This document shows, piece by piece, positions 1,981-51,934 of a DNA stretch of 64,000 bases (position 1 is its first letter; every line of letters begins with the position of its first letter). Position numbers and translations under genes: made by a program. The notes beneath the pieces were generated by a model. That model did not search any database, was not told where the DNA came from, and was given only the letters and a program-made list of their open reading frames with translations. Origin of the DNA: Euryarchaeota archaeon Ods02 (GTDB lineage: Archaea; Halobacteriota; Halobacteria; Halobacteriales; Halorutilaceae). The stretch lies in NCBI GenBank assembly GCA_028751075.1, contig JAQZDA010000005.1, positions 1 through 64,000 on the forward strand, read 5' to 3'.

Positions 1981-4900
1981 TTACGGTGGTCCTCCAGGTG
2001 CGTGTCCAGGTGGTCCACCACCGGGGGTTTCGTCAGGTGGACCCTGACCTGGGGGTTCTCCACCGTGTCCGGGTGGACAGGTCGGCGGACCGACAGGGGT
2101 GCCTGGGTTCTCCGGTGGAACCGGACAGCTGTCGACGACCTCGAACTCCAGCTCGTCTACCGTGACACCCGTACCGTCTATCTGCGCTGTTATCTCTCCC
2201 GAGTAGTTCCCTGTCGAGGTGTTCTCGGGTACGTCGACCGACGCGTTCACGGTGAGGGTGTCGCCGGCTTCCAGTAGATGCGACCGGTTCAGGGATACAC
2301 GAGTAGGCTGCAGAGTCGTGTTACCTTCCTCGTGGACTACCTTCGAGGGTGACAGCGAGACCGAGCGCACTCCGAGCAACGCCCTAGACTCGACCTCGAC
2401 GGGGATGACGCCGCTCGAGTTCCGCTCTATCTCAGGAACCCTCGTCTGGTTCACCGTCACCGGTGCTGCGTAATCCGCGTTCCAGGAGACCGACTCCCGC
2501 CGCTCCACGTTCCTGTCTTCGTCGACGGCTTTCACGGTGGCGTTGTACCTGCCTGTAGCGTTCTCGGCTAACGGCACCGTAGCGCGGTAGACGCCGGATG
2601 TCGTCTCGTCTAACGTTGCCTGCGTCTGGTCGCCGTCCGGAGTCTCTATCTCCGCAGTCACCGTCGCGCCCTCTATGGCTTCGGCCCCGAACAGCTCCGC
2701 GTCGATGGTGGCATTGCTGCCCGCGTAGTACTCGTTGCTCGAGGTGTAGGCCTCCAGCTGGGTGAGGCTGTTAGCCGTCACACGTGCTTCGAACTCGTTG
2801 CCTTCATCGCCACCCTGGACGTCGTAGGACCACTCCCCTGCTTCAGGGTCGGTGATCCGGTACACCGTCCGGTCCCCCAGAGTCGAGACCTCGACGGAGT
2901 CGGTTTCAGCTGGCTCCACCAGGGTGCCGTTCGGACGGTACAACCTAACGGTCCGGTTGACTGCATCTGAACCGCTCAGGTACTGGGACGAGATGGAGGT
3001 ACCGCTGTCACCTGCACCTGCTTCTCGAGACAGCTGGCGTTGCATCGCGGCAGGGTGTTCGGCGTCTAGGTCGACGAAGTCGCCGAGTCCACCTGTAGCT
3101 ACGTCGAGTATGACGTTGGACGTGCCTTCGTCGACGTGGAACGAGGACTCGAACAGTTCACCTGGTTGCACGAAACCCGTGAGCACCTGTATGATCTCGC
3201 TCGCGGTGAACTGCTGGGTCAGCTGGATGAAGTCCTCGATTATCTCGTCTCGCGAGTGGCTCTCGGTGTTCGAGCTGCAGCCTGCGGTGTCGGCGAGCGA
3301 GCGCTTGAACTCGTGGTCCGCGCCGTCACCCAAGGTGTTGGTCTGGAGGCAGATGTCGTTGGGGTTCATGCGGTCCCGTATCATGTCACGCATCGCGGAC
3401 TCGCTGGGGCCGCGGTTCCTTCCGCCGTCCGACATCAGTATCACGTTCTGCTGAACGCCGGCGGGGGCCTTCTGAACCTCGTCGATACCGTCACGCAACC
3501 CCGCCCCCATGTTCGTACCTCCTCCCGCGGACATCGACGCTATCGCGGACTTAGCGGAATCACGGCCTTCGTCCATCTGCGTCAGCCCCTGCCTGACGGT
3601 GGAGCCTGAGGAGAACCCTACGACCGCGAGGTAGTCGCTGTCCGCCTGCCGGTCTACGACTCCCTGAGCCGCGTCCTTCGCCGCCGACATCCGAGTCCCT
3701 CCTCCGACATCCGTGGCGCTCATACTACCGGAGGTGTCGACGACGACCGCTGTCGCAGTCTGCCCGCCAGCTTCACCTGGTTCGCTGTACACCGCTAGCT
3801 CCGGCTCCGACGCAGTCAACGTCTCATCCGTGGTCTTGAGCTCGACGTATACGTCGTACGAGCCGGCTTCCTCGACGTCGGGAGCGTCGAACCGCAGGGT
3901 TGCAGTCCGACCTAGGTCGTCCGAGGTGTCATCCGACAGATCCGCTTCGACGTCAACATCCACGCCAGCGACCACGAGGCTCCATCGCGCATCATCCAGA
4001 TCTAGCTGGCTATCACCTTTCACGAACACGTCGACGGACGTCCTCCGTGGGTCGTCCACAGTCCCAGCGTCGACGAAGCCGTCCTCCACTATCTCCAGCT
4101 CCGGCTCCGGCAGGCCATCGACTATCGACAGCGTCTCTACCTCTCGATCGAGCTCGTACGCGTCCTGGTAGACGTTCAACGTCGCCGTGAGATCGTGGTC
4201 TCCGGCCTCGTTCAAGCCCAGGTCCTGCAACGGCACCATCGCGCCGGCGACGTTCCGCGGATAGATCGAGTTCACGTAGAACCCGTAGCTCACGCTAGAA
4301 CCCCCTGCCTCCATACCCAGAACGAACTCGTGTGGCTGCATACCCGAGTTGATGACGTTGACACCGAGTTCGTCGTCGGCGTCCATGGTCCACCACATCC
4401 GTTCTTCGCCGTCCTCGGTTATCGTGTTAGGCGACACCAACGCAGGCGGAGCTTCGACACAGTTCGTCCACGGTTTCACGTCACAGAAGAAACCATCGTC
4501 GATGTCTGGGCGGACCACGCTCTCCTGGATACGGTCCTCGGGGTCGGACTGAGGTCCACGCAAGTCCGTGAACCTGTCATCCTCGTCCGAGAACTCAGCG
4601 TCGATCTGAGCAACGTCGGGGAACAGCCTGCGGTATCCGTCGTCGAACTCCGGACCCTCACCCTCGCTGGCCCACGCGCCCGGGTCGTCGAACTTCGGCC
4701 CCGTCTCCGTCGACAGGTTACCCGCGGTTGCGCCGGTGTCACGGGCCGGATCCAGTACGTCCATATCCTCGAGAGGCTGCGGATACGTGTAGATGTTGAC
4801 GGGTTCGTCCGACCAGCTCTCGTCGTTGGTCAGCACCGCTATCTCGTAGGTCTCGTCCACCTCCGACACCGCGGCGTCCTCGTGCGCCCAGGTGACGCCC

Positions 4901-6240
4901 TCCCCGTATCCGACAGGGTCGACGTAGTTCAGGACCAGCGACGCCAGCAAAGTACGGCTGGTGTCGCCGGGGTCGTCGACGTACTGGTCCTGATAGATGT
5001 ACTCGGGGCTCCTGTCACCCTCCCCTTGGCCCCTGACCTGTGCGTCCGTCTCGCCCGCGCTCTGGTTCGCGCCGAAGAAGTTCGAGTGCGCGCCTTCCGC
5101 TGGATAGATGACGGGTCGACCGTCGACGGTCTCCACGTGCTCCCACTTCCTGTACTCGCCACCCATGTGCTGCTGCGCCAGCACCCACTCGGGCTCACCG
5201 GTGTCCTGATCGAACAGGATGTAGAACGGCTCCTGGTCGCCTGTATGCGACGCCGCCCTGTCTGCTTCACGTGTCTCAGAGGGTTTCGGATCGTTCACGT
5301 AGAACATCCAGTAACCCACGGCGGTGTAGGTGCCGCCGTCGAGGTCGGAGGGGTCGGCGTCGGGGAACCGGTCGAGGTACGAGTCGTCCGGCTGGAAATA
5401 TACGTCCTCGACGAGGTTGGAGTACACCGTCGGCGGATACACGTCGGACTCCGACGGATCTAGATGCGTCAGCGAATCCCGGTCAGGAGCGACAGGACGT
5501 CCAACCCCGTAACCATTAGCCCAGCCGTTCCATTCATCCGTCAAAGCCTGCGGAAGAACGAACTCGAAGTAGTCCGCGTTCGCGTCATCGTCCGACCCGC
5601 GGTCCACCACCGAGAGATCGTAGAGGTTCGCGTCATCCAGCACCACCTCCTCGTCACCGTCGACCACCCGCCGGAGCTCCGAGTTCTCGAACAACGCCTC
5701 GTACCGCGTCGGATGATACAGCTCGTCCCCGTGGAAACGCAAGACAGGGGCGTGGTCCTGCATGACATCATACTCATTTGGATTCAACACGATTTCTCGT
5801 TGGTATGTGTACGTCTCTCCGTCGACATCGACTTCAAGTTTAACCCGAGTATCCTTCAAATCCGGAACTCGCAGGGCGGTGGTTCTGCCGTCGTGTGATG
5901 GTATGCTTTCTGTCTCAGAGCCATCGTGCAGTAGCTCGGCTTCAGAGTTGTTCACCGACCAACTGAAGCTCGCGTCCCTGTCTTCTACGAGTTCATGCGG
6001 GAACCCGAGCGCCAACGTCTCACCCACCTCTATACTTGCGTTATCCTGAGGGGGTGTTCTGGCGATGATGTCTACCGGTTCCTCAAAACCGTCTTGTTCG
6101 GAAACTTCCCCCGATTGCTCTGCATCTATCTCCATCGAACCGTCTGCAACTACCACTCCTGAAAGTAGGATAGTAAGTAGAACGAAGGTTATTCCAACTA
6201 TAGCTATGCTCCTGTACGCTCGTCTAGTGCTATCCCCCAT
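1981..6240 (-). CDS. Giant exported protein with VPS62-like and von Willebrand A domains (module A)
   Basis: 1419 residues from ATG 6240 (a TTG six bases earlier is possible; the paralog at 17923-22305 begins at the position equal to 6240). Residues 11-32 form a signal or anchor helix. Residues about 158-390 (APVLRFHGDELYHPTRY, HTGDQEPFYILFD, QQHMGGEYRKWEHVE, GRPVIYPAEGAHSNFF) resemble the VPS62/DUF946 fold. A vWA domain follows with the metal site D835-T-S-G-S at residues 835-839. Then come beta-sandwich-like regions and a Cys-flanked Pro/Gly/His tail (CPPGHGGEPPGQGPP) with no C-terminal membrane anchor. It is probably a cell-surface or released adhesin-like protein. It is divergent from the lipoprotein array that starts at 6370. 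No MoxR-type ATPase is nearby, so a chaperone-type vWA role is unlikely. The function is unknown. Confidence 0.88.
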   Translation of the reverse strand: MGDSTRRAYRSIAIVGITFVLLTILLSGVVVADGSMEIDAEQSGEVSEQDGFEEPVDIIARTPPQDNASIEVGETLALGFPHELVEDRDASFSWSVNNSEAELLHDGSETESIPSHDGRTTALRVPDLKDTRVKLEVDVDGETYTYQREIVLNPNEYDVMQDHAPVLRFHGDELYHPTRYEALFENSELRRVVDGDEEVVLDDANLYDLSVVDRGSDDDANADYFEFVLPQALTDEWNGWANGYGVGRPVAPDRDSLTHLDPSESDVYPPTVYSNLVEDVYFQPDDSYLDRFPDADPSDLDGGTYTAVGYWMFYVNDPKPSETREADRAASHTGDQEPFYILFDQDTGEPEWVLAQQHMGGEYRKWEHVETVDGRPVIYPAEGAHSNFFGANQSAGETDAQVRGQGEGDRSPEYIYQDQYVDDPGDTSRTLLASLVLNYVDPVGYGEGVTWAHEDAAVSEVDETYEIAVLTNDESWSDEPVNIYTYPQPLEDMDVLDPARDTGATAGNLSTETGPKFDDPGAWASEGEGPEFDDGYRRLFPDVAQIDAEFSDEDDRFTDLRGPQSDPEDRIQESVVRPDIDDGFFCDVKPWTNCVEAPPALVSPNTITEDGEERMWWTMDADDELGVNVINSGMQPHEFVLGMEAGGSSVSYGFYVNSIYPRNVAGAMVPLQDLGLNEAGDHDLTATLNVYQDAYELDREVETLSIVDGLPEPELEIVEDGFVDAGTVDDPRRTSVDVFVKGDSQLDLDDARWSLVVAGVDVDVEADLSDDTSDDLGRTATLRFDAPDVEEAGSYDVYVELKTTDETLTASEPELAVYSEPGEAGGQTATAVVVDTSGSMSATDVGGGTRMSAAKDAAQGVVDRQADSDYLAVVGFSSGSTVRQGLTQMDEGRDSAKSAIASMSAGGGTNMGAGLRDGIDEVQKAPAGVQQNVILMSDGGRNRGPSESAMRDMIRDRMNPNDICLQTNTLGDGADHEFKRSLADTAGCSSNTESHSRDEIIEDFIQLTQQFTASEIIQVLTGFVQPGELFESSFHVDEGTSNVILDVATGGLGDFVDLDAEHPAAMQRQLSREAGAGDSGTSISSQYLSGSDAVNRTVRLYRPNGTLVEPAETDSVEVSTLGDRTVYRITDPEAGEWSYDVQGGDEGNEFEARVTANSLTQLEAYTSSNEYYAGSNATIDAELFGAEAIEGATVTAEIETPDGDQTQATLDETTSGVYRATVPLAENATGRYNATVKAVDEDRNVERRESVSWNADYAAPVTVNQTRVPEIERNSSGVIPVEVESRALLGVRSVSLSPSKVVHEEGNTTLQPTRVSLNRSHLLEAGDTLTVNASVDVPENTSTGNYSGEITAQIDGTGVTVDELEFEVVDSCPVPPENPGTPVGPPTCPPGHGGEPPGQGPPDETPGGGPPGHAPGGPP

Positions 6241-6246
6241 TGTCAA

Positions 6247-6369
6247 CCCCGCAGTAGAAAACTCGTATTCCCCACTTAGTTTTTGATTTTGAAGGCGTAT
6301 ACTAACCTTTTAAATTGAAGTATACATAAGGTCGCAAACATTTTTGTTGTAGTATCCTATACTTCCGAT
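6247..6369. promoter_or_regulatory. Divergent promoter region shared by both copies of the vWA/lipoprotein module
   Basis: This AT-rich spacer separates the vWA gene (minus) from the lipoprotein array (plus). The stretch 6305-6360 is nearly the same as 22371-22428 in module B, including an unbroken identical run of about 25 bases that contains GCAAACATTTTTGTTGTAG. The element TTTAAATTGAAG (TTCAATTTAAA on the other strand) is a candidate TATA box for the vWA gene. Noncoding conservation of this kind points to shared regulation, or to a recent duplication. Confidence 0.6.
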
Positions 6370-7032
6370 ATGCCGCGTAGAAGGGGGGTACTCAGGAAAA
6401 CAGCTCTGACAGTTACAGCCACACTAACACCCGGCTGCATAATCGCAGACGACGCAGGAGACCCCGGCGTAGCACCAGAAGACCGAGACCGACCCTGCTG
6501 GCAGAACATCCACGGAGAACGTATCGATCTAGAGCCGTTCTTCGACCCAGAACTAGAAGACGAGATGGTTCCCCCCCAAGAAAAGATGCATTCTGTGTAC
6601 GAAAAATACGACGACGAAGACTACCCGGAATACAAAGCCTACATAGAGTCGATAGACGACTCAGTCGCAATACTACTCAAGGTAGATGTATATCCCACCG
6701 TCGAAGAAGCAGAAACCCACTACAACGAAAACGAAGAAAGCTACGACGAACCAAATACCTACGGATTCGCAGACGAAGCCGTAAAACAAGTCAACGGAGA
6801 CTACGCCGAAATGACCATAAGAGTATCAAACGCCGTCGGACACGTCATAAGCTACGTGCCCGACGAAGCACCAGAAGAGCCGGATGAAAGATGGACTTCG
6901 CCAAGCGCACGCGTCCTCGCATTCGGAGAAGATCTGCATGACTACTGGGCAGGAACAAGCGACTACAAAAATCAACCAGGCTTCTGCAGACAGGAAGTCA
7001 TGGACCTACAACAACCAAACGAAAACAACTGA
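6370..7032 (+). CDS. Tandem Tat-lipoprotein paralog A1
   Basis: 220 residues and first in an array of four. The start MPRRRGVLRKTALT is a twin-arginine signal, and PGC with C23 is a lipobox, so the mature protein is probably lipid-anchored outside the cell. Two further cysteines, C43 (RPCWQNI) and C206 (PGFCRQE), are kept in every copy and could form a disulfide. The body is very acidic, with shared blocks EPFFDPE, YDDEDYPEYKAYI, VSNAVGHVISYVP, DYWAGTS and LQQP. I recognise no known domain. Its last 90 bases are almost identical to the end of B3 (24366-24458), a sign of exchange between arrays. A2 follows after 3 bases. Confidence 0.9.
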   Translation: MPRRRGVLRKTALTVTATLTPGCIIADDAGDPGVAPEDRDRPCWQNIHGERIDLEPFFDPELEDEMVPPQEKMHSVYEKYDDEDYPEYKAYIESIDDSVAILLKVDVYPTVEEAETHYNENEESYDEPNTYGFADEAVKQVNGDYAEMTIRVSNAVGHVISYVPDEAPEEPDERWTSPSARVLAFGEDLHDYWAGTSDYKNQPGFCRQEVMDLQQPNENN

Positions 7033-7035
7033 AAA

Positions 7036-7698
7036 ATGCCGCGCAGAAGGGGGGTACTCAAGAAGACCGCGTTATCAGTTACTATTGTACCAGCTTCCGG
7101 CTGCATAATCGCCGACGACGCAGGAGACCCCGGAGTAGCACCTGAGAATCGTGACAGACCGTGTTGGCAGAACATACATGGAGAACGCATCGACCTAGAA
7201 CCCTTCTTCGACCCAGAAAGAGAACAAGAAATGGTGCTGTCAGAAGACGAGATACATTCTGTTTACGAAAAATACGACGACGAAGAATACCCGGAATACA
7301 AAGCATACATCGACACGATAGACAACTCAGTAACCGTACTCTTCAAAGTAGATGTCTACCCTACAGTCGAAGAAGCAGAAACCCACTACACAGAGACGAA
7401 AGAAAGCTATGAAGAACCAAAGGACTGGTGGTTCAAAGATCAGTCCGTTAAACAAACCGACGGAGACCACGCCGAAATGATCATAAGAGTCTCTAATGCT
7501 GTAGGACACGTCATCAGCTACGTACCCGAAAAAGCACCAGAAGACCCAGACGACAGAAGAACTACACCAAGAGGTCAAGTACTGGCATTCGCAAAAGATC
7601 TCCGCGACTACTGGGCAGGCACAGGCGACTACAGACAAAACCCCGGATTCTGCCGCGAAGAAGTCAAAGCACTACAACAACCAGACGAAAACGACTGA
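7036..7698 (+). CDS. Tandem Tat-lipoprotein paralog A2
   Basis: 220 residues, with the same layout as A1: twin-arginine start MPRRRGVLKKTAL, lipobox C23, the paired cysteines in RPCWQNI and PGFCREE, and the blocks EPFFDPE, YDDEEYPEYKAYID and SNAVGHVISYVP. After the lipobox it has the IIADDAGDPGVAP segment, which defines one of two sequence classes in the arrays (A1, A2, A3, B3). It begins 3 bases after A1 and ends 6 bases before A3, so the array is surely one operon. Function unknown. Confidence 0.9.
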   Translation: MPRRRGVLKKTALSVTIVPASGCIIADDAGDPGVAPENRDRPCWQNIHGERIDLEPFFDPEREQEMVLSEDEIHSVYEKYDDEEYPEYKAYIDTIDNSVTVLFKVDVYPTVEEAETHYTETKESYEEPKDWWFKDQSVKQTDGDHAEMIIRVSNAVGHVISYVPEKAPEDPDDRRTTPRGQVLAFAKDLRDYWAGTGDYRQNPGFCREEVKALQQPDEND

Positions 7699-7704
7699 AA
7701 ACAG

Positions 7705-8364
7705 ATGCCGCGCAGAAGGGAAATACTCAAGAAAACAGCTTTGGCTGCTATGGCTATAACAACATCCGGCTGTATACTCGCCGATGATGCAGGAGATCCC
7801 GGAGTCGCACCCGAAGATAGAGACCGGCCGTGCTGGGAGAACATCCACGGAGAACGCATCGACCTAGAGCCGTTCTTCGACCCAGAACGAGAAGATAAAA
7901 TGGTCCTCCCCGAGGAAGAGATGCTTTCTGTGTACGACACATACGAAGACGAAGACTACCCAGAATACAAAGCATACATCGATACAAGAGATCAAGCAAA
8001 TACAGTACTCTTCAACGTAGAAGTCTACCCCACAGTAGAGGAAGCAGAAACCCACTACAACGAAACAACTCAGGTCGACGGAGCAAAGGACTACGGATTC
8101 GGAGACCAAGCCGCGAAACACACCGACGGAGACTACGCCGAAATGACCATCAGGGTCTCCAACGCAGTAGGACACGTCATCAGCTACATACCAGAAGCAG
8201 CACCAGAAGACCCAGAAGACAGAACATTCTCCCCAAGAGGCCGAGTATTGAGATTCGCAGAAGAACTCCACGACTACTGGGCAGGCACCAGCAGCTTTGA
8301 GAATCAGCCCGGCTTCTGCCGCGACGAAGTCAAAGCACTACAACAACCAGACGAAGATAACTGA
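7705..8364 (+). CDS. Tandem Tat-lipoprotein paralog A3
   Basis: 219 residues. Twin-arginine start MPRRREILKKTAL, lipobox TSGC (C23), and the same class of post-lipobox segment as A1 and A2 (ILADDAGDPGVAP). It is one residue shorter in the middle, where the SYDEP block reads VDGAKDYGFGDQ. The paired cysteines (RPCWENI, PGFCRDE) and all other family blocks are present. It uses the A-rich codons (GAA, AAA, ATA, AGA) typical of the array and unlike the neighbouring trmI gene. Function unknown. Confidence 0.9.
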   Translation: MPRRREILKKTALAAMAITTSGCILADDAGDPGVAPEDRDRPCWENIHGERIDLEPFFDPEREDKMVLPEEEMLSVYDTYEDEDYPEYKAYIDTRDQANTVLFNVEVYPTVEEAETHYNETTQVDGAKDYGFGDQAAKHTDGDYAEMTIRVSNAVGHVISYIPEAAPEDPEDRTFSPRGRVLRFAEELHDYWAGTSSFENQPGFCRDEVKALQQPDEDN

Positions 8365-8370
8365 ATAGAA

Positions 8371-9037
8371 ATGCCGCGCAGAAGAGGGGTAATCAAGAAG
8401 ACAGCTTTAGCGACCATCACCGTTCCAGCATTCGGCTGTATAAAACTCCCTCGTGAAGGGGACCCAGCCAAACCACCAGAAGACCAAGACCGGCCATGCT
8501 GGCAGAACATCCAAGACGAAAGAATCGAACTAGAGCCGTTCTTCGACCCAGGTCGGGAAGACGAGATGGTGCTTTCAGAAGAAGAGATGCATTCTGTGTA
8601 CGACAAATACGACGACGAAAACTACCCTGAATACAAAGCCTACCTCGACACGGTAGACAACTCAGTCACCGTACTCTTCAACGCATATGTCCACCATACA
8701 GTAGACGGAGCAAAAACCCGCTACAACGAAAACAAAGAAAGCTACGAAGACCCAGATTACCTTCACCGGATTCGCCGACCAAGCCATAAGACACGACGAG
8801 GGAGATCACGCCGAGATTACCATAAGAGTATCCAACGCAGTAGGACACGTCATCAGCTACGTACCAGAAGAAGCACCAGAAGACCCTGATGAAAGACGAA
8901 CCACGCCAAGCGGACGGATCTTGGTATTCGCAGAACATCTTCGTGACTACTGGGCAGGCACCAGCAGCTACAAAAACCAACCCGGGTTCTGCCGAGAAGA
9001 AGTCAAAGAACTACAACAACCAGACGAAGCCGGATGA
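8371..9037 (+). pseudogene. Tandem Tat-lipoprotein paralog A4, interrupted by a +1 frameshift
   Basis: The first 129 codons encode a normal family member (MPRRRGVIKKTAL, lipobox C23, class-two segment IKLPREGDPAKPPED). At 8755-8760 the sequence GATTACC replaces GACACC of the close relative B3, one base too many, and the frame breaks (as read, it stops at 8889). Skipping one base near 8757-8758 restores TFTGFADQAIRHDEG onward, with SNAVGHVISYVP, DYWAGTS and PGFCREE intact to a TGA at 9035-9037. The undamaged second half shows the break is recent, a sequencing error, or bypassed. B4 breaks at the same place. Confidence 0.8.
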
Positions 9038-9051
9038 CTGAGTAGAGCCGG

Positions 9052-9786
9052 TTACCCCATCTTCCGCGCGAACGCGATGAACGCGGTGTGTGGCACGGTG
9101 TCGTGTTCGGGGCGGGCGGGGTAGCTGCTCCATTCGCGGCGGCCTATCTCCACGGTCTCCGAGTGTTCGAGCTCGTATTCTTCGAAGCTGTCGTGGCAGT
9201 CCCGTACCTGTTCGAAGACGGGGCAGTAGCATACGACGTAGCCGCCGCTTCGGACGGCTTCCGCCGCCGGCTCCACGGCTTCCTCGAGATGCATCATGTC
9301 GAGGAAGACGAGGTCGACGTCTTCGACGGTGAAGCCTTCTTCCTTGACGTCGCGGTGGTGGACGCTTACGTTGTCCGCGCCCGCTGCTTCGACGTTGTCG
9401 CGCGCGGTTTCGACGAACTCCTCCCGTACTTCGTAGCTGTCGACCTCGTTTACGACGTTCGCGAGCGTGAGCGCGGTGAACGCGCTTCCGGTGCCTGCGT
9501 CGGCGACCCGGCTCTCGCTGCCGACGCCGGTGCGTGCGACGACGTAGCCGAGATCCTCCTGCGGCGGCGTCTGCGTCCGCTGCTCCAAGCGGTGGCGGAA
9601 CACCTCCTCGAGATCGGGTTTCACCAGCCGGAACTCCTCGCCGACGTGGGTCTCGACGGTGGAGCCGTACTCAGCGGCGGTGGCTTCCTCCGAAAGCACG
9701 CCTTCGTGTAGCTCCACCCGTGTGCCGCGTTCACGGAGGTAGGTGTTGTCGTCGCCGACGAGGAGGACGAGGTCGTCGAACTCCAT
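9052..9786 (-). CDS. trmI: tRNA (adenine-N1)-methyltransferase, TrmI family
   Basis: 244 residues from ATG 9786 (MEFDDLVLLVGDDNTYL). An upstream TTG gives three more residues but has no better signal. The N-terminal beta domain is followed by a Rossmann methyltransferase with the SAM motif VADAGTGSAFTALTLAN and the catalytic-region block DLVFLDMMHLEEA. Archaeal TrmI methylates A57/A58 in the T-loop of tRNA. The first 58 bases of the gene reappear as a scar at 11553-11610. It sits tail to tail with the lipoprotein array, 14 bases from the end of A4. Confidence 0.93.
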   Translation of the reverse strand: MEFDDLVLLVGDDNTYLRERGTRVELHEGVLSEEATAAEYGSTVETHVGEEFRLVKPDLEEVFRHRLEQRTQTPPQEDLGYVVARTGVGSESRVADAGTGSAFTALTLANVVNEVDSYEVREEFVETARDNVEAAGADNVSVHHRDVKEEGFTVEDVDLVFLDMMHLEEAVEPAAEAVRSGGYVVCYCPVFEQVRDCHDSFEEYELEHSETVEIGRREWSSYPARPEHDTVPHTAFIAFARKMG

Positions 9787-9986
9787 GCACGGCAAAGGGA
9801 GGCGCGGGTGTTAGAACCACCGGAAAAGAGGTGCGGCGATTATATACCCCGGTTCTGGGAACTCGAAGATGCAGGGCAGACTAACTGACGCTCCTACTCC
9901 CTATCTCACAATCGACGGTCGATGTTCTTCGCCGACCATCAGAGCGCTCCTGATATCGTCCTCGGCGCCGCCGGCCCCCCGGCCCC

Positions 9987-10141: not shown

Positions 10142-10642
10142 TCAGTCTTCGGCGTCTATACCTTCGAAAGGCGGGTCATTGTGCTTGGGATGTTCCTCAG
10201 GAACCCTGCGTTCCTCACCACACACGTCCATGTCCACAGGAGTACTCATCTCCGTGCCTACTAGCGCAATGTTACCATCGTCGTCGACTGTGATGCTAAG
10301 ATGCCTTCTACTGCAGTCGACACTCCAGTAGTACCTCCCGGAATCGAGCACCTCGGAACTCCGAATCTCAATCTCAACTTCATAAAGACCTGCTTCATCC
10401 ACAACATCCTCGAAAACACCCCTGACAGCCTGATCTTGCACTACGGAGGCTGAACCGGAGAACACCTCCCCGCCCCCTTCGAACACCTGAACTTCGACGG
10501 TAACATCTTCACCGTACTCGGAGGTCACGTCGACACCCACAGGTTCCGGCGGATCATACGCAGTGTTACGGCTATGTAGACATCCGCCAGAGAGAACCGC
10601 GGCCGAAACCCCCATGAACTCCCGACGGTCGATTCCTGTCAT
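10142..10642 (-). CDS. Tat lipoprotein, first of a tandem pair
   Basis: 166 residues. DRREFMGVSAAVLSGGC is a twin-arginine signal running into a lipobox (C21), so the protein is probably anchored to the outer face of the membrane. The mature part looks like one beta-sandwich (VDVTSEYGEDVTVEVQVFEG, GLYEVEIEIRSSEV), with two cysteines in YYWSVDCSRR and MDVCGEERRVPEE. The neighbour at 10828 is a clear paralog over its whole length. I recognise no domain. The pair lies between duplicated ends of dehydrogenase and trmI genes, so it arose by local duplication. Confidence 0.85.
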   Translation of the reverse strand: MTGIDRREFMGVSAAVLSGGCLHSRNTAYDPPEPVGVDVTSEYGEDVTVEVQVFEGGGEVFSGSASVVQDQAVRGVFEDVVDEAGLYEVEIEIRSSEVLDSGRYYWSVDCSRRHLSITVDDDGNIALVGTEMSTPVDMDVCGEERRVPEEHPKHNDPPFEGIDAED

Positions 10643-10827: not shown

Positions 10828-11322
10828 TCAGTCTTCGACCCCTCCCCGTTGAGGAAACTCATCGGGAACCCGTCGCTGCTCACCGCAAGCGTCAACCTGA
10901 GGTTCGACCTGGATTGTAGTTGCCCCATCAATATTCCCCTCGGCGTCGATGTCGATAACGAAGTTTCTGGAGGTGCAGCTAACACTCCAGTAGTAACTAC
11001 CGGAGTCTATAACGTCTGAATCACGAGTCTCGACCTCAACCTCATAAATTCCAGCCTCACTCACGACATCCTCGAACGTCCCGCTGACATCCTGAGGCGC
11101 TATGGTGGTTGAATCAGAGAAAACCTCCCTGTCGTCTTCGAAGACCTGAACACCCACGGTGACTTCTTCAGGGTATTCAGATACTTCTTCAACGTATTCG
11201 GATCTCACATCGATATCCACCGGGTCCGGCGGATCAGAAGCGGTGTTCCGGCTATGTAGACAGCCGGTAGAGAGAACTGCGGCCGAAACCCCCATGAACG
11301 CCCGACGGTCAATCCCGGTCAT
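10828..11322 (-). CDS. Tat lipoprotein, second of a tandem pair
   Basis: 164 residues, paralogous to the gene at 10142-10642: twin-arginine and lipobox DRRAFMGVSAAVLSTGC (C21), CLHSRNTASDPPDPVDIDV, a beta-rich middle, and the same paired cysteines in YYWSVSCTSR and VDACGEQRRVPDE. It carries an extra copy of an SEYVEEVSEYPEEV-like block near residue 42, which looks like a small internal duplication. Surface-anchored, function unknown. Confidence 0.85.
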   Translation of the reverse strand: MTGIDRRAFMGVSAAVLSTGCLHSRNTASDPPDPVDIDVRSEYVEEVSEYPEEVTVGVQVFEDDREVFSDSTTIAPQDVSGTFEDVVSEAGIYEVEVETRDSDVIDSGSYYWSVSCTSRNFVIDIDAEGNIDGATTIQVEPQVDACGEQRRVPDEFPQRGGVED

Positions 11323-17922: not shown

Positions 17923-20900
17923 CTATGGCGGGCCTGCGCCCTGTCCGGGGTTGCCGTCGTCGTGACCAGGGGGGCCATCGGAGCCATCGTGTCCGGGTGG
18001 TATGTCATCCAACCCTGGAGGCGTGCCACCGTGTCCCGGTGGACAGTCCTCAGGACCCTCGGGGTCGCCGAGTGTGTCGGGTGTGTCGGGTGGGAGCGGG
18101 CAGTCGTCGACCACACGGACCTCTAGCTCGTCGACGGTGACGCCGCTGTCGTCGACGAATCCACCTGCCTCCGCGGTGTAGTTGCCAACCGCTGCGTCTT
18201 CGGGTGCAGAAACCGTGACGGGGACCTCCACCGTCTCGCCGGACTCCACGAGGTGCGAGCGGTCGAACGAGAGATACGAGCTCGACAACGTCTCGTTACC
18301 GGAGTCGTGACCTAGCTCCGACACAGATACCTCGACGGAGCGGATGCCCAGAAGCGCTTCAGGCTGTATCGTCAGAGTGGCTTCGGTCTCGCCACCTTGC
18401 TCCACCACCGGCGTCTCCGGCTGTGTTAGTGCGACGGGGGCGGCGTGCTCCGCCACCCACGAGACGGTCTCCTGTCTCTCGACGTGTCCGTCCTCGTCGT
18501 GAGCGGTTACCGTGGCTTCGTAGGTGCCCGAAGCGTTGTCGTCGAGACCGACGGTCGCACGGTAGACTCCGTCTTCCACCTCGTCGAACACGACCGTCTC
18601 CTTGGAGCCGTCGGGAGCCTCCACCCGGGCTTCCACGTCGGCGTCTCCGACGGCTTCGGTGCCGTACAGCTTGGCGGTGACGTCGGCTTCGCTGCCAGCG
18701 TAGTAGCGGTCGCTCGACGTGGCGACGTCGAGCTCTACCAGCGAGTTCGCAGTCACCCGGGTTTCGAACTCGACCGCTTCGTCTCTGCCGTCTATCTCGT
18801 AGCTCCAGGACCCTGCTTCGGGGTCGGTGAGCCTGTACACCGTTCTGTCGTCGGTCACCGACACCTCGACGTCGGAGTCGGCTCCTGGGTCGGCGATGGA
18901 GCCGTTCGGCCTGTAGATACGTACTTCCCTGTCCTCCGCTGCCACGGAAGCCGTCTCGATTCCGGAATCCATGACATCGACGTCGCCCTCCTCCGTGGCT
19001 TCGGCTTCGTCGTCGATGTCGCTTCTGTCGTCCCTGACGTCTATCTCGTGTCGCTCGGCGACGTCCTCCTGCCGCGTGGACTCTACCTGTAGCGACGACG
19101 TCTCAGTCTGTAGCTCCTCGACTGCGACGTCGAGGATCACGTTCGAGGCTTCGTCGTCGACCTCGAACGACCCTCCGAAGACGTCGTCGACCCCTATCTG
19201 TCCGGTGACGAGCTTCACTAGCTCGGACGCGGTGAACTCCTGGATTAGCTCGATGAAGTCCTGAACTATCTCGTCTCGGGTGAAGCTCTCGGTGACCTGC
19301 GAACAGTCAGAGGCATCCGCAAGCGAACGCTTGAACTCGAAGTCCGCGCCGTCACCCAGGGTGTTCGTCTGCAGGCAGATACCCTCGGGGTTCATGCGTT
19401 CGCGGATGGCGTCACGCATCGATGACTCGCTGGGCCCGCGGTTGCGGCCGCCGTCCGACATCAACACGACGTTCTGGTGGACGCCGTCGGGTGCCTTCTC
19501 GACCTCGTCGATGCCGTCGAACAGGCCGGCGCCCATGTTGGTGAGGCCGCCGGCGTTCATGCTGTCGATAGCCGCCTCGGCGTCGTCCCTGCCTTCGTCA
19601 AGCCGCGTCAACCCCTGCAGCACCGTGGAGCCGCTGGAGAACTCGACGATGGCGACGTAGTCGGAGTCGGACTTACGTTCGAGGTAGCCGTGGGCGGCGT
19701 CCTTCGCCGCCGACATACGGGTGCCGCCGCCGACGTCCCTTGCGCTCATGCTCCCCGAGACGTCGACGACGATAGCCGTCGCCGTCGCACCGGCTTCACC
19801 GGGCTCCATGTAAGCCAGGAGATCGTCCTCGGACGCCGACAGCGTCTGGTCCTCCGTCTCAAGCGTCACCGTGACGTCGTACGAACGGGCTTCGTCCTTG
19901 TCCGGTGCAGTGAACCGTAACGTGGCTTCACCGCGTAGGTCGGAGTCGCGCTCCAGACCATCGTACTCCGCCCACGCCGACACCTCCTCGCCTTCGACCT
20001 CCACCGACCAGTCACCATCTCTGACCTCGTCGGACGATAGACCGGAGACCACGAGATCCACGGAGACGGACCGCGGATCCTCCACCGTGCCAGCGTTCAC
20101 CTGTGCCTCGGTCGTTATATCGAGGGATGGTTCGGGTAGGCCGTCGGTCACCCTGAGGCTAAGGTCCTTGGAGTCGGTCTCGTACGTTTCAGGGTAGAGA
20201 GACAGAGTTGCGTCGAAATCGAAGTCGCGTATTGCCTCTGATCCTTCTTCGGCCACGTCAGACTCCGTGATTCCGACAGTGGACAACGGCACCTCTGCAC
20301 CCGCGACGTTCCTCGGATAGATGGAGTTCACGTAGAACGAGTAATCGGCTTGATGACCTGCATCTGTCGCGAGATCCAGGGTGAAGTCGTGAGGCTGCAT
20401 CCCCGGGTTGACGACGTTCACGCCTATCAAGTCGTCCGCCTCCGTCCACCCTATCAACTCGTCGTCGTGAGGCATCTGGTTCGGGGCGACCACGGCAGGT
20501 GGGGCTTCGACGCAGTTCACGTCGCCGGCAGCTTCGCAGACGTCGAAGAAGCCGGGTTCGTCACCGTCCTCAGGGCGGACCACCGACTGCTGTATCCTGT
20601 CTCCAACGTCCTCACGGATACCCCAGAACTCGTTCTCCTCGTCCGAGAACTCGCCGTCGACCTGAGCAATGTCGGGGAACAACCGACGTCCGTCTCCATC
20701 CTCAGCCCACTCACCCGGGTCGTCGAACTTGGGGCCTACTTGCTGGGGTATGGTTCCTTCGGTCGCGCCTGTGTCACTGGGTATCAGAGGTACTAACTCT
20801 TCGAATGGCTGAGGATACGTGTAGACGTTCCCGTCGTAGTCAGACCATGCTTCATCCCCGGTCAGAACCGATATCTCGTAGGCTTCATCGGTTGACCGCT

Positions 20901-22305
20901 GGATATCGGCGTCTTGGTGAGCCCAGGTTGTACCCGTGTCTTCGTAGGCAACAGGGTCGAGGTAGTTCAGACCTTCATCAGATAGAAAACTGCGGTCGGT
21001 GTTACCAGGGTCATCGAGGTACTGGTCCTGATAGATGTATCTGGGTTCCAGATCCCCATCCGACGGTGCTCTGACCTGTCTGTTGTCGCTCTGGTTAACT
21101 CCGAAGAAGTTCGAGTGAGCGCCTTCGGCCGGGTAGATCACCGGTCTTGCATCCTCTCGCTCGACGTGCTCCCACTTCCTGTACTCGCCGCCCATGTGCT
21201 GCTGCGCCAGCACCCACTCCGGCTCACCGGTGTCCTGATCGAACAGGATGTAGAATGGTTCCTGATCACCGGTATGTGCAGCGATCCTGTCAGCACTGAC
21301 CAAACCTTCTTCGACGGATATCAACGGTTTAGGGTCGTGGACGTAGACCATCCAGTACCCGATAGCTGTGTAGGTATCCTCTTGCATCTCAGAGGAGTCC
21401 GTGTCGGGGAACCGGTCGACGTAGGAGTCATCGGGTTCGAAGTCGACGTCCTCCACGAGGTTAGAGTAGACCGTCGGCGGATAGACGTCGGACTCCGACG
21501 GATCAAGGTGCGCCAACGAGTCGCGCTCCGGAGGCTCCGATACACCGTACCCCGAACTCCATCCACCCCATTCGCCAGTGAGGGCACGGGGGAGGATGAA
21601 CTCGAAGTAATCCTCTTCATAACCCACCTTCGACTCGTGATCTATCACCGACACGTCATACAGGTTAGCGTTGTCCAGCAGAACCTCCTCATCTTCATCC
21701 ACAACCCCCCTCAGCTCCGAGTTCTCGAACAACGCCTCGTACCGCGTCGGATGATACAGCTCATCCTCATGAAAACGGAGGACAGGGGCGTAATTTTGCA
21801 TCACATCGAAGCGAGGTTCGCCCAATACACCCTCAGCTGGCTCCGCCTCGATTACTCTTTGGTAGGTGTACGTCTGTCCGTCAACATTGACTTCCAGCTC
21901 GACCAGAGTATTCACGGCCTCCGTAACCCGTAGGGCGGTCGTTCTTCCGTCATGTGGAGGTACGTCCACTGTGTCAGATACAGAACCCTCGTGGAGCAAT
22001 TCGGCTTCTGAGTTGTTTACTGACCAAGTGAACGTTGCATCTCTATCTTCTAAGAGTTCCTTTGGAAACCCGAGCGTCAACGTCTCACCTACCGTAACCT
22101 CTACCCTTTCCTCCGGATCTGTCCTAGGTATGATATCTATCGGCTCCTCAAAAACGTCTTGACCCGAGACATCATCCGAAAACTCTACATTCGGCTCCGT
22201 CGAACCGTCTGAAACCGCTACACCTGAAATTACGATTGTGAGAAGAGCGAAGGTTATCGCTACTATAGCTATGCTCCTGTACGGTCGTCGTGTGCTACTC
22301 CCCAT
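17923..22305 (-). CDS. Giant exported protein with VPS62-like and von Willebrand A domains (module B)
   Basis: 1460 residues, paralog of the gene at 1981-6240 over its whole length. Start MGSSTRRPYRSIAIVAITFA (signal helix about 11-32). The VPS62-like part (APVLRFHEDELYHPTRY, HTGDQEPFYILFD, AEGAHSNFFG) is the best conserved. The vWA metal site D848-V-S-G-S lies in IVVDVSGSMSARDVGGGTRM. It carries an insertion after the vWA domain (ERHEIDVRDDRSDIDDEAEA) absent from copy A. The tail DDCPLPP to CPPGHGGTPPGLDDIPPGHD is again Cys-flanked and Pro/Gly/His-rich. Divergent from array B through a conserved spacer. Likely surface or released; function unknown. Confidence 0.88.
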   Translation of the reverse strand: MGSSTRRPYRSIAIVAITFALLTIVISGVAVSDGSTEPNVEFSDDVSGQDVFEEPIDIIPRTDPEERVEVTVGETLTLGFPKELLEDRDATFTWSVNNSEAELLHEGSVSDTVDVPPHDGRTTALRVTEAVNTLVELEVNVDGQTYTYQRVIEAEPAEGVLGEPRFDVMQNYAPVLRFHEDELYHPTRYEALFENSELRGVVDEDEEVLLDNANLYDVSVIDHESKVGYEEDYFEFILPRALTGEWGGWSSGYGVSEPPERDSLAHLDPSESDVYPPTVYSNLVEDVDFEPDDSYVDRFPDTDSSEMQEDTYTAIGYWMVYVHDPKPLISVEEGLVSADRIAAHTGDQEPFYILFDQDTGEPEWVLAQQHMGGEYRKWEHVEREDARPVIYPAEGAHSNFFGVNQSDNRQVRAPSDGDLEPRYIYQDQYLDDPGNTDRSFLSDEGLNYLDPVAYEDTGTTWAHQDADIQRSTDEAYEISVLTGDEAWSDYDGNVYTYPQPFEELVPLIPSDTGATEGTIPQQVGPKFDDPGEWAEDGDGRRLFPDIAQVDGEFSDEENEFWGIREDVGDRIQQSVVRPEDGDEPGFFDVCEAAGDVNCVEAPPAVVAPNQMPHDDELIGWTEADDLIGVNVVNPGMQPHDFTLDLATDAGHQADYSFYVNSIYPRNVAGAEVPLSTVGITESDVAEEGSEAIRDFDFDATLSLYPETYETDSKDLSLRVTDGLPEPSLDITTEAQVNAGTVEDPRSVSVDLVVSGLSSDEVRDGDWSVEVEGEEVSAWAEYDGLERDSDLRGEATLRFTAPDKDEARSYDVTVTLETEDQTLSASEDDLLAYMEPGEAGATATAIVVDVSGSMSARDVGGGTRMSAAKDAAHGYLERKSDSDYVAIVEFSSGSTVLQGLTRLDEGRDDAEAAIDSMNAGGLTNMGAGLFDGIDEVEKAPDGVHQNVVLMSDGGRNRGPSESSMRDAIRERMNPEGICLQTNTLGDGADFEFKRSLADASDCSQVTESFTRDEIVQDFIELIQEFTASELVKLVTGQIGVDDVFGGSFEVDDEASNVILDVAVEELQTETSSLQVESTRQEDVAERHEIDVRDDRSDIDDEAEATEEGDVDVMDSGIETASVAAEDREVRIYRPNGSIADPGADSDVEVSVTDDRTVYRLTDPEAGSWSYEIDGRDEAVEFETRVTANSLVELDVATSSDRYYAGSEADVTAKLYGTEAVGDADVEARVEAPDGSKETVVFDEVEDGVYRATVGLDDNASGTYEATVTAHDEDGHVERQETVSWVAEHAAPVALTQPETPVVEQGGETEATLTIQPEALLGIRSVEVSVSELGHDSGNETLSSSYLSFDRSHLVESGETVEVPVTVSAPEDAAVGNYTAEAGGFVDDSGVTVDELEVRVVDDCPLPPDTPDTLGDPEGPEDCPPGHGGTPPGLDDIPPGHDGSDGPPGHDDGNPGQGAGPP

Positions 22306-22436
22306 TTGTCAACCCCTCTGTAGAAGACTCAAATTTGTGACTTAGTTCTTGATTTTCAAAGCGTTTACGAACCCTTTAAATTGAAGTATACAGATGGTCG
22401 CAAACATTTTTGTTGTAGTACCCTGTACACCCATTT
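22306..22436. promoter_or_regulatory. Divergent promoter region of module B
   Basis: The AT-rich spacer between vWA gene B and array B. The part 22371-22428 repeats 6305-6360 of module A almost base for base, including CCTTTAAATTGAAGTATAC and the GCAAACATTTTTGTTGTAG run, while the surrounding 60 bases have drifted more. Selective conservation of the middle suggests shared promoter or operator elements for both divergent transcripts. Confidence 0.6.
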
Positions 22437-23105
22437 ATGCCGCGCAGAAGGGGGGTACTCAGGAAGGTAGCGTTAGCAGCTATCGCAATACCAGCATCCG
22501 GGTGCATAAGACTCCCTCGCGAAGGAGACCCAGCCAAACACCCAGAAGACAGAGACCGACCATGCTGGCAGAACATCGAAGACGAAAGAATAGACCAAGA
22601 ACCCTTCTTCGACCCGGAAAGAGAAGACGAGATGGTAATACCAGAAGATGAGATGCACTTCCAGTACGACGAATACGATGACGAAGACTACCCAGAATAC
22701 AAAGCCTATATCGATACAGTAGATCACTCAAATACCGTACTCTTCAAAGCAAACGTCTACGCTACGGTCGAAGAAGCGATAGAAAGCTACAGCGAGGTCC
22801 ACGAGTCCTTCGAAGATCCAGATAGTTTCGGCGTCGGTGACGAGGCAATGGAACAAGAAGCTCGGGACGGGAAATTCGCTGAGATGGTATTCAGGAAATC
22901 CAACGCAGTAGGACACGTAATCAGCTACATACCCGGCGAAGCACCCGAAGACCCAGACGACAGAAGATTCCGGCCAAGAAGCCGAGTATCGAGATACTCT
23001 CGACAACTCCGCGACTACTGGGGCGGCACCAGCGACTACAAAGACCACCCCGGATTCTGCAGACAGGAAGTCATGGACCTACAACAACCAGACGAAGATG
23101 ACTGA
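22437..23105 (+). CDS. Tandem Tat-lipoprotein paralog B1
   Basis: 222 residues. Twin-arginine start MPRRRGVLRKVAL, lipobox ASGC (C23), then the class-two segment IRLPREGDPAKHPED shared with A4, B2 and B4. The family cysteines are in RPCWQNI and PGFCRQE. It differs from the others in the middle (MEQEARDGKFAEMVFRKSNA). First gene of array B; B2 starts 6 bases after it. Probably membrane-anchored outside the cell. Function unknown. Confidence 0.9.
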   Translation: MPRRRGVLRKVALAAIAIPASGCIRLPREGDPAKHPEDRDRPCWQNIEDERIDQEPFFDPEREDEMVIPEDEMHFQYDEYDDEDYPEYKAYIDTVDHSNTVLFKANVYATVEEAIESYSEVHESFEDPDSFGVGDEAMEQEARDGKFAEMVFRKSNAVGHVISYIPGEAPEDPDDRRFRPRSRVSRYSRQLRDYWGGTSDYKDHPGFCRQEVMDLQQPDEDD

Positions 23106-23111
23106 ACAATA

Positions 23112-23786
23112 ATGCCACGCAGAAGGAGGGTACTCAAGAAGACAGCGCTAACAACCGCAGCTGCCACACCATTATCCGGCTGTATAAAACTCCCCCGTGA
23201 AGGAGACCCGGCCAAACCACCAGAAGACCGAGACAGACCCTGCTGGCAGAACATCCAAGACGAAAGAATCGAACTAGAACCATTCTTCGACCCGGAACGA
23301 GAAGACAAAATGGTGATCCCAGAAGACGAGATGCACTTCCAGTACGAAGAGTACGACGACGAAGACTACCCAGAATACAAAGCCTACATCGACACAGAAG
23401 ACTACTCCAACACCATACTCTTCAAAACAAACGTCTACTCCACTGTCGACGAAGCAAAATCCCATTACAATGTAACGAAACAAAGCTACGACGAACCAAA
23501 CACCTTCGGAACCGGAGACCAAGCCGCGAAACAAGATGACGGAGACCACGCTGAAACAATCATGAGAGTCTCCAACGCAGTAGGGCATGTAGTTAGCTAC
23601 GTACCCGACGAAGCACCAGAAGATCCAGAAGACAGAAGGTTCCAGCCGAGGACACGGGCGACAGGTTATGCACGTGAGCTTCGCGACTACTGGGGCGGAA
23701 CCAGCAGCTTCGAAGACCACCCCGGCTTCTGCCGCGAAGAAGTCAAAGCACTCCAACAACCAGACGAACCAGACGAAAACGAGTGA
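23112..23786 (+). CDS. Tandem Tat-lipoprotein paralog B2
   Basis: 224 residues, the longest copy. Start MPRRRRVLKKTALTTAAATP with lipobox LSGC (C24), class-two segment IKLPREGDPAKPPED, and family cysteines in RPCWQNI and PGFCREE. The C-terminus has one extra acidic repeat (QQPDEPDENE). The 5' half is nearly identical to A4 in the IKLPREG region, evidence of mixing between the two arrays. B3 starts 6 bases later. Confidence 0.9.
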   Translation: MPRRRRVLKKTALTTAAATPLSGCIKLPREGDPAKPPEDRDRPCWQNIQDERIELEPFFDPEREDKMVIPEDEMHFQYEEYDDEDYPEYKAYIDTEDYSNTILFKTNVYSTVDEAKSHYNVTKQSYDEPNTFGTGDQAAKQDDGDHAETIMRVSNAVGHVVSYVPDEAPEDPEDRRFQPRTRATGYARELRDYWGGTSSFEDHPGFCREEVKALQQPDEPDENE

Positions 23787-23792
23787 AAACAG

Positions 23793-24458
23793 ATGCCGCG
23801 CAGACGGGGGGTACTCAAGAAGACCGTGTTAACGGTTACTGCGATATCAGCGTCCGGCTGCCTCATCGCCGACGATGCAGGCGACCCCGGAGTCGCACCA
23901 GAAGACAGAGACCGACCATGCTGGCAGAACATCGACGGAGAACGCATAGACCAAGAACCATTCTTCGATCCAGGCCGGGAAGACGAGATGGTGCTTTCAG
24001 ACGATGAGATGCATTCTGTTTATGACTCGTACGACGACGAAGACTATCCGGAATACAACGCATTCATCGACACGGTAGACAACTCAGTCACCGTACTCTT
24101 CAACGCATATGTCCACCACACGGTAGACGGAGCAAAAACCCGCTACAACGAAAACAAAGACAGCTACGACGACCCAGACACCTTCACCGGATTCGCCGAC
24201 CAAGCCATAAGACACACCGGCGAAGACTATGCCGAGATGACAATCAGAGTCTCCAATGCAGTCGGACACGTCATCAGCTACGTACCAGACGAAGCACCCG
24301 AAGACCCAGACGACAGAAGAACCACACCAAGAATGAAGGTATTTGGGTTCGGCCAAGATCTCCACGACTACTGGGCAGGAACAAGCGACTACAAAAATCA
24401 ACCAGGCTTCTGCAGACAGGAAGTCATGGACCTACAACAACCAGACGAAAACAACTGA
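23793..24458 (+). CDS. Tandem Tat-lipoprotein paralog B3
   Basis: 221 residues. Start MPRRRGVLKKTVL, lipobox ASGC (C23), class-one segment LIADDAGDPGVAPED as in A1-A3. The middle (NAYVHHTVDGAKTRYNENK) is almost identical at DNA level to A4 (about 8660-8755 against 24081-24176), and the last 90 bases match A1. It is therefore a mosaic of array A sequences inside array B. All family blocks and both cysteines are intact, which makes it the reference for placing the break in A4. Confidence 0.9.
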   Translation: MPRRRGVLKKTVLTVTAISASGCLIADDAGDPGVAPEDRDRPCWQNIDGERIDQEPFFDPGREDEMVLSDDEMHSVYDSYDDEDYPEYNAFIDTVDNSVTVLFNAYVHHTVDGAKTRYNENKDSYDDPDTFTGFADQAIRHTGEDYAEMTIRVSNAVGHVISYVPDEAPEDPDDRRTTPRMKVFGFGQDLHDYWAGTSDYKNQPGFCRQEVMDLQQPDENN

Positions 24459-24461
24459 AAA

Positions 24462-25116
24462 ATGCCACGGAGAAGGGGGGTACTTAGGAAGACATTTTTA
24501 GCAGTTGCTGCCATACCGGTATCCGGCTGCATAAAACTGCCTCGTGAAGGAGAAAATCCGATTCCCCCAGAAGAAATAGATCGGCCCTGCTGGGAGAACA
24601 TAGAGGGAAAACGCATCGACCAAGAACCATTCTTCGACCCAGAAACCCAAGCCGAGATGGTTCTCGATCTTGAAGATGTAAGCGACGTATACGAGCAGTT
24701 TACTGACGAGGATTACCCCGAATTCGACGCATTTATCGACACCAGAGACAACTCCAACATAGTCCTCATAAACGTAGAAGTCCCCAGAGAAGTATCAGAC
24801 TCAATCGACTACTACAACGAAACCAAACGGAGTTACGACTCCCCCCCAACCACTCCATAGAGGGGATGAATCAGCAATCCAGAACCTGGACGAGATGGCA
24901 AAGGGAGTCCTAAGACTCTCCAACGCAGTTGGAGAAGTCATATCCTACGTCCCCGAAGACCCCAGGCCCGCTGAAGAACGATATTTCACCCCCGAGCAAC
25001 GAATAGATTGGACCTGTAGAATAATGGTCGATTACTGGGGAGGAACCAACAGATTCGACGACCACCCCGGCTTCTGCCGCGAAGAAGTCAAAGCACTACA
25101 ACAACCAGAAAGCTAG
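24462..25116 (+). pseudogene. Tandem Tat-lipoprotein paralog B4, interrupted by a +1 frameshift in a C7 tract
   Basis: The start MPRRRGVLRKTFL and lipobox C23 are normal. The frame runs to a TAG at 24858-24860 because of a run of seven C at 24841-24847. With six C the reading continues as QPLHRGDESAIQNLDEMAKG, then VLRLSNAVGEVISYVP, DYWGGTN and PGFCREE to a TAG at 25116, restoring the full family layout. This is the most diverged copy (many substitutions in the first half). The break falls at residue 127, the same alignment position as in A4. Phase-variable slippage, decay or sequencing error are all possible. It overlaps the convergent dehydrogenase gene by 4 bases. Confidence 0.8.
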
Positions 25117-31812: not shown

Positions 31813-32577
31813 ATGTACCAGGATGGTGTGGTTTCGGCGGCATCGCGGAGGGACTTCCTGGCTGCGGTGGCGGCGTCTGCGACTGTGGCGAGCGCGGGCT
31901 GTATCGACGGCGAGCCAGCGGAGGAGACGTACTACGTCGCGACGTTCCACTGGGGTTTCGCCACTTTCGACGAGGACGGCGAGGAGGTTGAGGAGATAAG
32001 AGTGGAGGAGGGCGCGGAGGTCACTCTGTACGCCGTGAACGACCACGCCTACGACGCGATAGAGGGGCTTCCGGACGCGGTAGCGGAGTCCGTGAGCGAG
32101 CTGGACGCTCTGGAGAGAACGAAGGAGAGGGTGGAGGCTGGCGAGATACCGGAGCCGGAGGACTCCACCATCGAGGAGGAGTACGATGCAGTGCACGCCG
32201 TCCTCCACGATATCGAGGACGACCACGAGCACGGAGACGACGGCTATGGCGACGACGACCATCACGACGATGACGGACACCACGATGACGAGCATGACGG
32301 GAACGACCACGGCCACGATGAGGAAGACGGCCACAACGACGATGAAGACCACCACGACGATCATGCGCACGACGATCATGGATACGACGAGACGGTGCTC
32401 GACCACTTCGTCGTAATCGACGAGTTCGACGTATCCACCGAATCTTCGGCGCAGTTCCAAGAACCACGTAGCGAGACCTTCGTAGCGGACGAGACCGGTT
32501 CGTTCGACGTCTACTGCCCGCACCCATGTGGCTACGGCCACGCCTGGATGCGTCAGGAGATGTTCCACGTCGAGTGA
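31813..32577 (+). CDS. CuA-type cupredoxin Tat lipoprotein with a histidine-rich insert
   Basis: 254 residues. SRRDFLAAVAASATVASAGC is a twin-arginine signal with lipobox C30. The C-terminus CPHPCGYGHAWMRQEM carries the CuA spacing CxxxCxxxHxxM (C235, C239, H243, M246), and H198 in LDHFVVIDEF fits the remaining ligand, as in cytochrome c oxidase subunit II and N2O reductase. Between the first strands and H198 lies a low-complexity Asp/His segment (about 132-190) with sixteen histidines, likely a metal-binding loop. No oxidase subunit I is next to it, so it may be a copper receptor or electron carrier rather than a CoxB subunit. Confidence 0.78.
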   Translation: MYQDGVVSAASRRDFLAAVAASATVASAGCIDGEPAEETYYVATFHWGFATFDEDGEEVEEIRVEEGAEVTLYAVNDHAYDAIEGLPDAVAESVSELDALERTKERVEAGEIPEPEDSTIEEEYDAVHAVLHDIEDDHEHGDDGYGDDDHHDDDGHHDDEHDGNDHGHDEEDGHNDDEDHHDDHAHDDHGYDETVLDHFVVIDEFDVSTESSAQFQEPRSETFVADETGSFDVYCPHPCGYGHAWMRQEMFHVE

Positions 32578-51800: not shown

Positions 51801-51934
51801 GGACTCATAAGAGATTCAGCAACACCTATAGAATCCAAAGTAGTGCAATCGTTAACCTTTCCCGCCACAAGATTGAAGTAATATGCTCCACGGTTTTCGC
51901 TATTGTGGGGGACAAAACTCTTGACCTACAGAAG

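Follow-up and report, generated by a model that had tools for sequence, protein, structure and literature searches.

A duplicated, lineage-restricted module pairing a large vWA protein gene with a putative Tat lipoprotein array in a haloarchaeal genome

Module layout, second copy and insertion sites

The window analyzed here, a 64-kb stretch of contig C34 in a haloarchaeal assembly (G000; 2.27 Mb, 56 contigs), contains a divergent module at positions 1981–9037. A large gene on the minus strand (1981–6240; start ATG at 6240), encoding a putatively exported protein of 1419 a.a, stands head to head with four lipoprotein genes on the plus strand, A1 (6370–7032), A2 (7036–7698), A3 (7705–8364) and A4 (8371–9037), with only the divergent intergenic region (6241–6369) between the two sides. 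Using 1981–9037 as the query in an assembly-wide DNA search, we identified a second, diverged copy within the same window (17923–25116; E = 0, 72% identity over 4.8 kb), which is co-oriented with the first and has the same head-to-head layout and four-gene array. An initial sequence-only reading had recognized the divergent layout of copy A, which we confirm, and had overlooked copy B; its statement that no named system shares this layout agrees with our finding of none in Pfam, NCBIfam or PADLOC. The remaining hits in the 2.27-Mb assembly were two 39-base matches, and no third copy was found. The second copy strengthens the pairing of the large protein and the lipoproteins inside this genome.

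In copy B, the large gene (17923–22305, minus strand) encodes 1460 a.a, and the array comprises B1 (22437–23105), B2 (23112–23786), B3 (23793–24458) and B4 (24462–25116), all on the plus strand. The intergenic region of copy B (22306–22436) is identical to that of copy A at 100 of 123 compared bases (81%), which exceeds the 72% identity of the aligned module DNA as a whole. In a core surrounding a TTTAAA box and the block GGTCGCAAACATTTTTGTTGTAGTA, identity rises to ~93%. Both gene sides would be transcribed from the conserved intergenic region and may be co-expressed. The module ends showed no flanking repeats (≥8 bp).

The neighborhoods of both copies are preserved in a member of the same family (G001), which keeps nuoB, nuoA, a SAM methyltransferase (window 9052–9795) and an acyl-CoA synthetase (13774), as well as an FMN-type oxidoreductase (25113) and chorismate synthase (26353). 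Both sites are empty in this genome: the methyltransferase ends ~95 bp before nuoA at site A, and just a small transmembrane (TM) protein lies between the oxidoreductase and the synthetase at site B. Site A is also empty in G002, where no module lies beside nuoA, and neither profile nor sequence searches found the module lipoprotein in G001–G003. The GC content at third codon positions (GC3) is 0.48–0.60 in the lipoprotein genes and 0.72–0.74 in the large genes, with a window median of 0.79. Given the empty sites and the low GC3 of the lipoproteins, the module is lineage-specific and was probably acquired, a gain in this lineage being likelier than several losses. The lower GC3 of the lipoproteins relative to the large genes also raises the possibility that the histories of the two sides differ.

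Several other genes in the window are worth recording. Between the two modules lies an unrelated pair of paralogous lipoprotein genes (10142–10642 and 10828–11322, minus strand; GCLHSRNTA lipobox, GC3 ~0.55), which is missing from the syntenic stretch of G001. At 51905–52423 (plus strand), GC3 falls to 0.405, lower than in any other gene candidate of the window. The product of the gene at 31813–32577 (plus strand) is a Tat lipoprotein whose long linker is rich in His and Asp; it also has a CPHPCGYGHAWM motif resembling a CuA copper site, which we liken to the site of cytochrome oxidase subunit II-like proteins.

The large vWA protein and its relatives

The large protein of copy A comprises, in order, a signal sequence, an Ig-like and Vps62-like part, a vWA domain with a metal ion-dependent adhesion site (MIDAS), an MG2/NEW3-like Ig part, and a tail that in both copies is rich in Cys and Pro/Gly/His and lacks a TM segment; the two copies are 62% identical across their full length. 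The vWA domain was matched by Pfam VWA_2 (E = 1.4e-16 in copy A, 8.9e-16 in copy B), and the MIDAS elements used to define vWA membership (DxSxS, T, D) are all present by eye in the alignment, as DxSGS at D837-S839-S841, T911 and D940. The Vps62 match (PF06101) is weak, scoring 16.4 bits in copy A and 22.4 bits in copy B against a gathering score of 22.1, while a protein of genome G432 that exceeds this cut-off (26.6 bits) was matched by a fragment of copy A at E = 2.9e-9. The description of a 1419-residue exported protein with a Vps62-like part and a vWA metal site, made from the letters of the DNA, is upheld, with a weak match for the former part. PDB sequence searches gave no usable match, and the predicted structure of the 780-residue N-terminal part was too poor to use (pLDDT 36), with a 6-row alignment that included the counterpart gene of SHR40.

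A profile of the large protein matched 77 genomes, mostly through the vWA stretch alone, and such matches were not counted as homologues. Collinear homologues were identified in Halorubrum salipaludis WN019 and Halorubrum sp. 48-1-W (loci L059 and L060), with the same N-terminal Ig-like, Vps62-like, vWA and C-terminal Ig-like parts. Unlike the window proteins, they measure 1800 and 2150 a.a and end in a PGF-CTERM-like TM anchor, which was read by sequence in both (the Pfam score for WN019 is 17.4 bits against a cut-off of 18.8). Among plasmids, the only match besides generic vWA hits was that of Natrialbaceae archaeon CCL63 (CP134701.1, L028), where a relative of the Vps62-like part is followed after ~6 bp by the gene of a vWA protein; the same split pair occurs in SHR40 (L065). 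These pairs resemble the window protein in placing the two parts directly side by side, but differ in being two genes with Tat-type N-termini, and both CCL63 proteins have C-terminal TM-like segments that the window copies lack. The adjacency in CCL63 suggests that Vps62-like and vWA domains work together, and the window protein joins in one chain parts that are also found as neighbors. Judged by its sequence, the large protein represents a variation on an architecture already known from haloarchaea (Vps62-like, vWA and Ig-like). Viral-contig and phage searches gave no match.

A second SHR40 locus (L066) encodes a Vps62-like relative with GLUG repeats, which is likewise without a C-terminal TM segment. 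An adjoining cluster of exported proteins (L066:6452–16912) shares similar dockerin-like C-terminal repeats (IDTDLLREVVxAWQSGEP). In G115 (L061:5737–11777), a vWA domain and a window-like C-terminal part are joined to a metallopeptidase-like N-terminal part instead, and the product of the next, overlapping gene has a TM segment at its C-terminus. No lipoprotein array was present beside the homologues at the Halorubrum, CCL63 plasmid and SHR40 loci.

Haloarchaeal surface proteins can be anchored by way of PGF-CTERM and archaeosortase A (ArtA) (PMC8875312 and references therein). Neither large protein of the window has a C-terminal hydrophobic segment, and neither locus was among the genome-wide TIGR04126 matches or combined a PGF motif with a TM segment and a basic tail. 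ArtA is encoded in the host genome (E = 2e-78), which also gave at least nine PGF-CTERM matches over the cut-off, so the anchor is missing from the window proteins and not from the lineage. The absence of the C-terminal anchor of their homologues lends weight to the idea that the lipoproteins serve as the anchor, although the homologue at L066, with neither a TM segment nor an array, indicates that anchor loss does not require lipoproteins.

A large secreted protein next to lipoproteins in several copies recalls, in general terms, effector/immunity layouts, in which the secreted protein would harm neighboring cells and the lipoproteins would shield the producer at its membrane. The sequence-only reading had drawn this comparison, for which we found no positive evidence beyond the layout itself: Pfam, NCBIfam and PADLOC searches returned no toxin or defense family, and homologues of the large protein occur without any such lipoprotein. 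We regard this explanation as very improbable.

The lipoprotein arrays

The first three proteins of array A are intact paralogues (A2 and A3 are 73% and 70% identical to A1) with an RR signal, a G-C lipobox and two further invariant cysteines (C43 and C206 in A1), encoded by genes spaced 3–6 nt apart. By sequence, the RR signal and a lipobox cysteine near residue 23 are present in eight of the eight array genes. These are the features of haloarchaeal Tat lipoproteins, so the array products are probably exported and lipidated, and would be attached to the membrane through Cys23. The extra cysteines lie in an N-terminal DRPCWxNI and a C-terminal PGFCRxEV extension, both common to all array members, and a disulfide may link these two ends. 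The lipoproteins had no match near the cut-off in Pfam or NCBIfam and none in PADLOC or PHROGs, and the predicted structure of A1 was likewise too poor to use (pLDDT 34; 7-row alignment).

Four lipoproteins had been described in array A; the lipobox and cysteines are as stated and A1–A3 are intact, but A4 is frameshifted. It carries one extra T at ~8758–8761 relative to its nearest paralogue B3 (a +1 shift); the end at 9037 is reached only by a frame change, and the downstream part still reads as a family member. B4, the most diverged member, changes frame at ~24850, within C-rich sequence close to a G-run (24840–24880), and its 3′ end overlaps a convergent gene. Both shifts fall near codon 130, leaving three intact lipoproteins per array. 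Given that the sites are unrelated in sequence and that A4 and B4 are not each other's closest relatives, the two frameshifts look like independent events. General assembly error is less likely, since the syntenic housekeeping genes recognized through G001 are intact in the window. Against the intact paralogues, dN/dS is 0.23–0.44 in the downstream part of A4 and mostly higher, 0.43–0.63, in that of B4, indicating a more relaxed constraint. We also considered programmed frameshifting; the downstream parts are still coding-like, but the site sequences are unrelated and nothing positive speaks for it.

The intact lipoproteins are under purifying selection (dN/dS ~0.2–0.5). They are also mosaic: A1 and B3 share an identical 78-bp block at their 3′ ends although their overall identity is only ~80%, B3 and A4 share an identical block of 52 bp, and two alternative cassettes after the lipobox, IADDAGDPGVAPED and KLPREGDPAKPPED, are spread over both arrays. 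The 78-bp run was longer than in all 2000 codon-column shuffles, and trees of the N-terminal, middle and C-terminal segments conflict. The simplest reading of these sequences is gene conversion between arrays A and B.

Such exchange of cassettes, together with the broken last gene in both arrays, fits an account in which the lipoproteins form an independent varying surface array, diversified by conversion, that binds ligands or presents decoys or receptor variants towards viruses or neighbors, while the large protein acts separately as an adhesin. Bacteria offer a parallel in their tandem lipoprotein islands. The lpl cluster of Staphylococcus aureus (PMC4470592) is likewise a genomic island with paralogous lipoprotein genes in tandem; the window arrays differ from it in that their Tat lipoproteins are archaeal and accompany a giant vWA protein, and no sequence relationship is indicated, the window lipoproteins lacking a Pfam or NCBIfam match. 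The observed dN/dS signifies constraint and not diversifying selection overall, however, and gene conversion can homogenize as well as diversify, and we consider this account unlikely, if credible.

Distant relatives of the lipoproteins were found only in G014, G656, G080 and G669, in searches that each covered up to 394 genomes from overlapping samples; a scan of genome contigs with a single lipoprotein query gave no match. They are 20–26% identical to A1 (31% over the aligned part for G014) and share with the arrays a core with an R-x-S/A-N-A-V-G motif, which is degenerate in G656 and G669, as well as a C-terminal W. Those of G014, G656 and G080 are likewise Tat lipoproteins, whereas that of G669 has no lipobox. 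Unlike the array members, all four are single copies without the DRPCWxNI and PGFCRxEV extensions and their two extra cysteines. The window lipoproteins are, by these comparisons, an undescribed and divergent family.

Relationship between the two sides

No vWA or Vps62 gene was recognized in the 9–17 kb examined around each of these four relatives. Co-occurrence of the two families in other genomes, on which the sequence-only reading had staked its proposed association, thus fails outside this lineage on both sides. This favors a rival account in which the large protein and the array are surface genes without a functional tie that came in, or were copied, together on one DNA segment, their head-to-head order reflecting merely a shared promoter region. 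The differing GC3 of the two sides agrees with it, and a single duplication would account for both pairings. It is harder to reconcile with the layout and the strongly conserved intergenic region having been kept in both units despite ~38% protein divergence.

Our best explanation, tentative and on present data equally probable as this main rival, is a duplicated, lineage-specific surface system in which the array lipoproteins dock or retain the anchorless large protein at the cell surface. The vWA part of the protein held there would bind a ligand, possibly in adhesion, and conversion between arrays would vary the lipoproteins while their end extensions are kept. Several observations favor such a system: the unit is present twice with an intergenic region better conserved than the rest; site A is empty in G001 and G002 and site B in G001, and lipoprotein GC3 is low; the intact lipoproteins combine purifying selection with mosaic runs; the C-terminal anchor is missing from the window copies while the host has ArtA and PGF-CTERM proteins; and the Cys-bearing extensions occur in all array members and in none of the four singleton relatives. 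Against docking count the lack of co-occurrence of both families outside this genome, the differing GC3 of the lipoproteins and the large genes, and the possibility that an N-terminal hydrophobic segment, if left uncleaved, anchors the large protein itself. The more specific proposal that docking to disulfide-clamped lipoproteins took the place of an ancestral sortase-type C-terminal anchor after its loss, with conversion between the arrays keeping the lipoproteins variable, is doubtful.

With its observed anatomy, duplication, empty sites, missing anchor, host anchoring machinery and mosaicism, the module is real, duplicated and lineage-restricted, while a two-component system is not demonstrated. 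Regardless of docking, the locus puts on record a duplicated surface island, confined to this lineage, whose lipoprotein arrays recombine; a divergent family of Tat lipoproteins that had not been described; and an association of Vps62-like and vWA parts that recurs in haloarchaea, both fused and as adjacent genes. Should the lipoproteins indeed dock the large protein, haloarchaea would be able to give up archaeosortase as the means of anchoring giant surface proteins in favor of lipoproteins.
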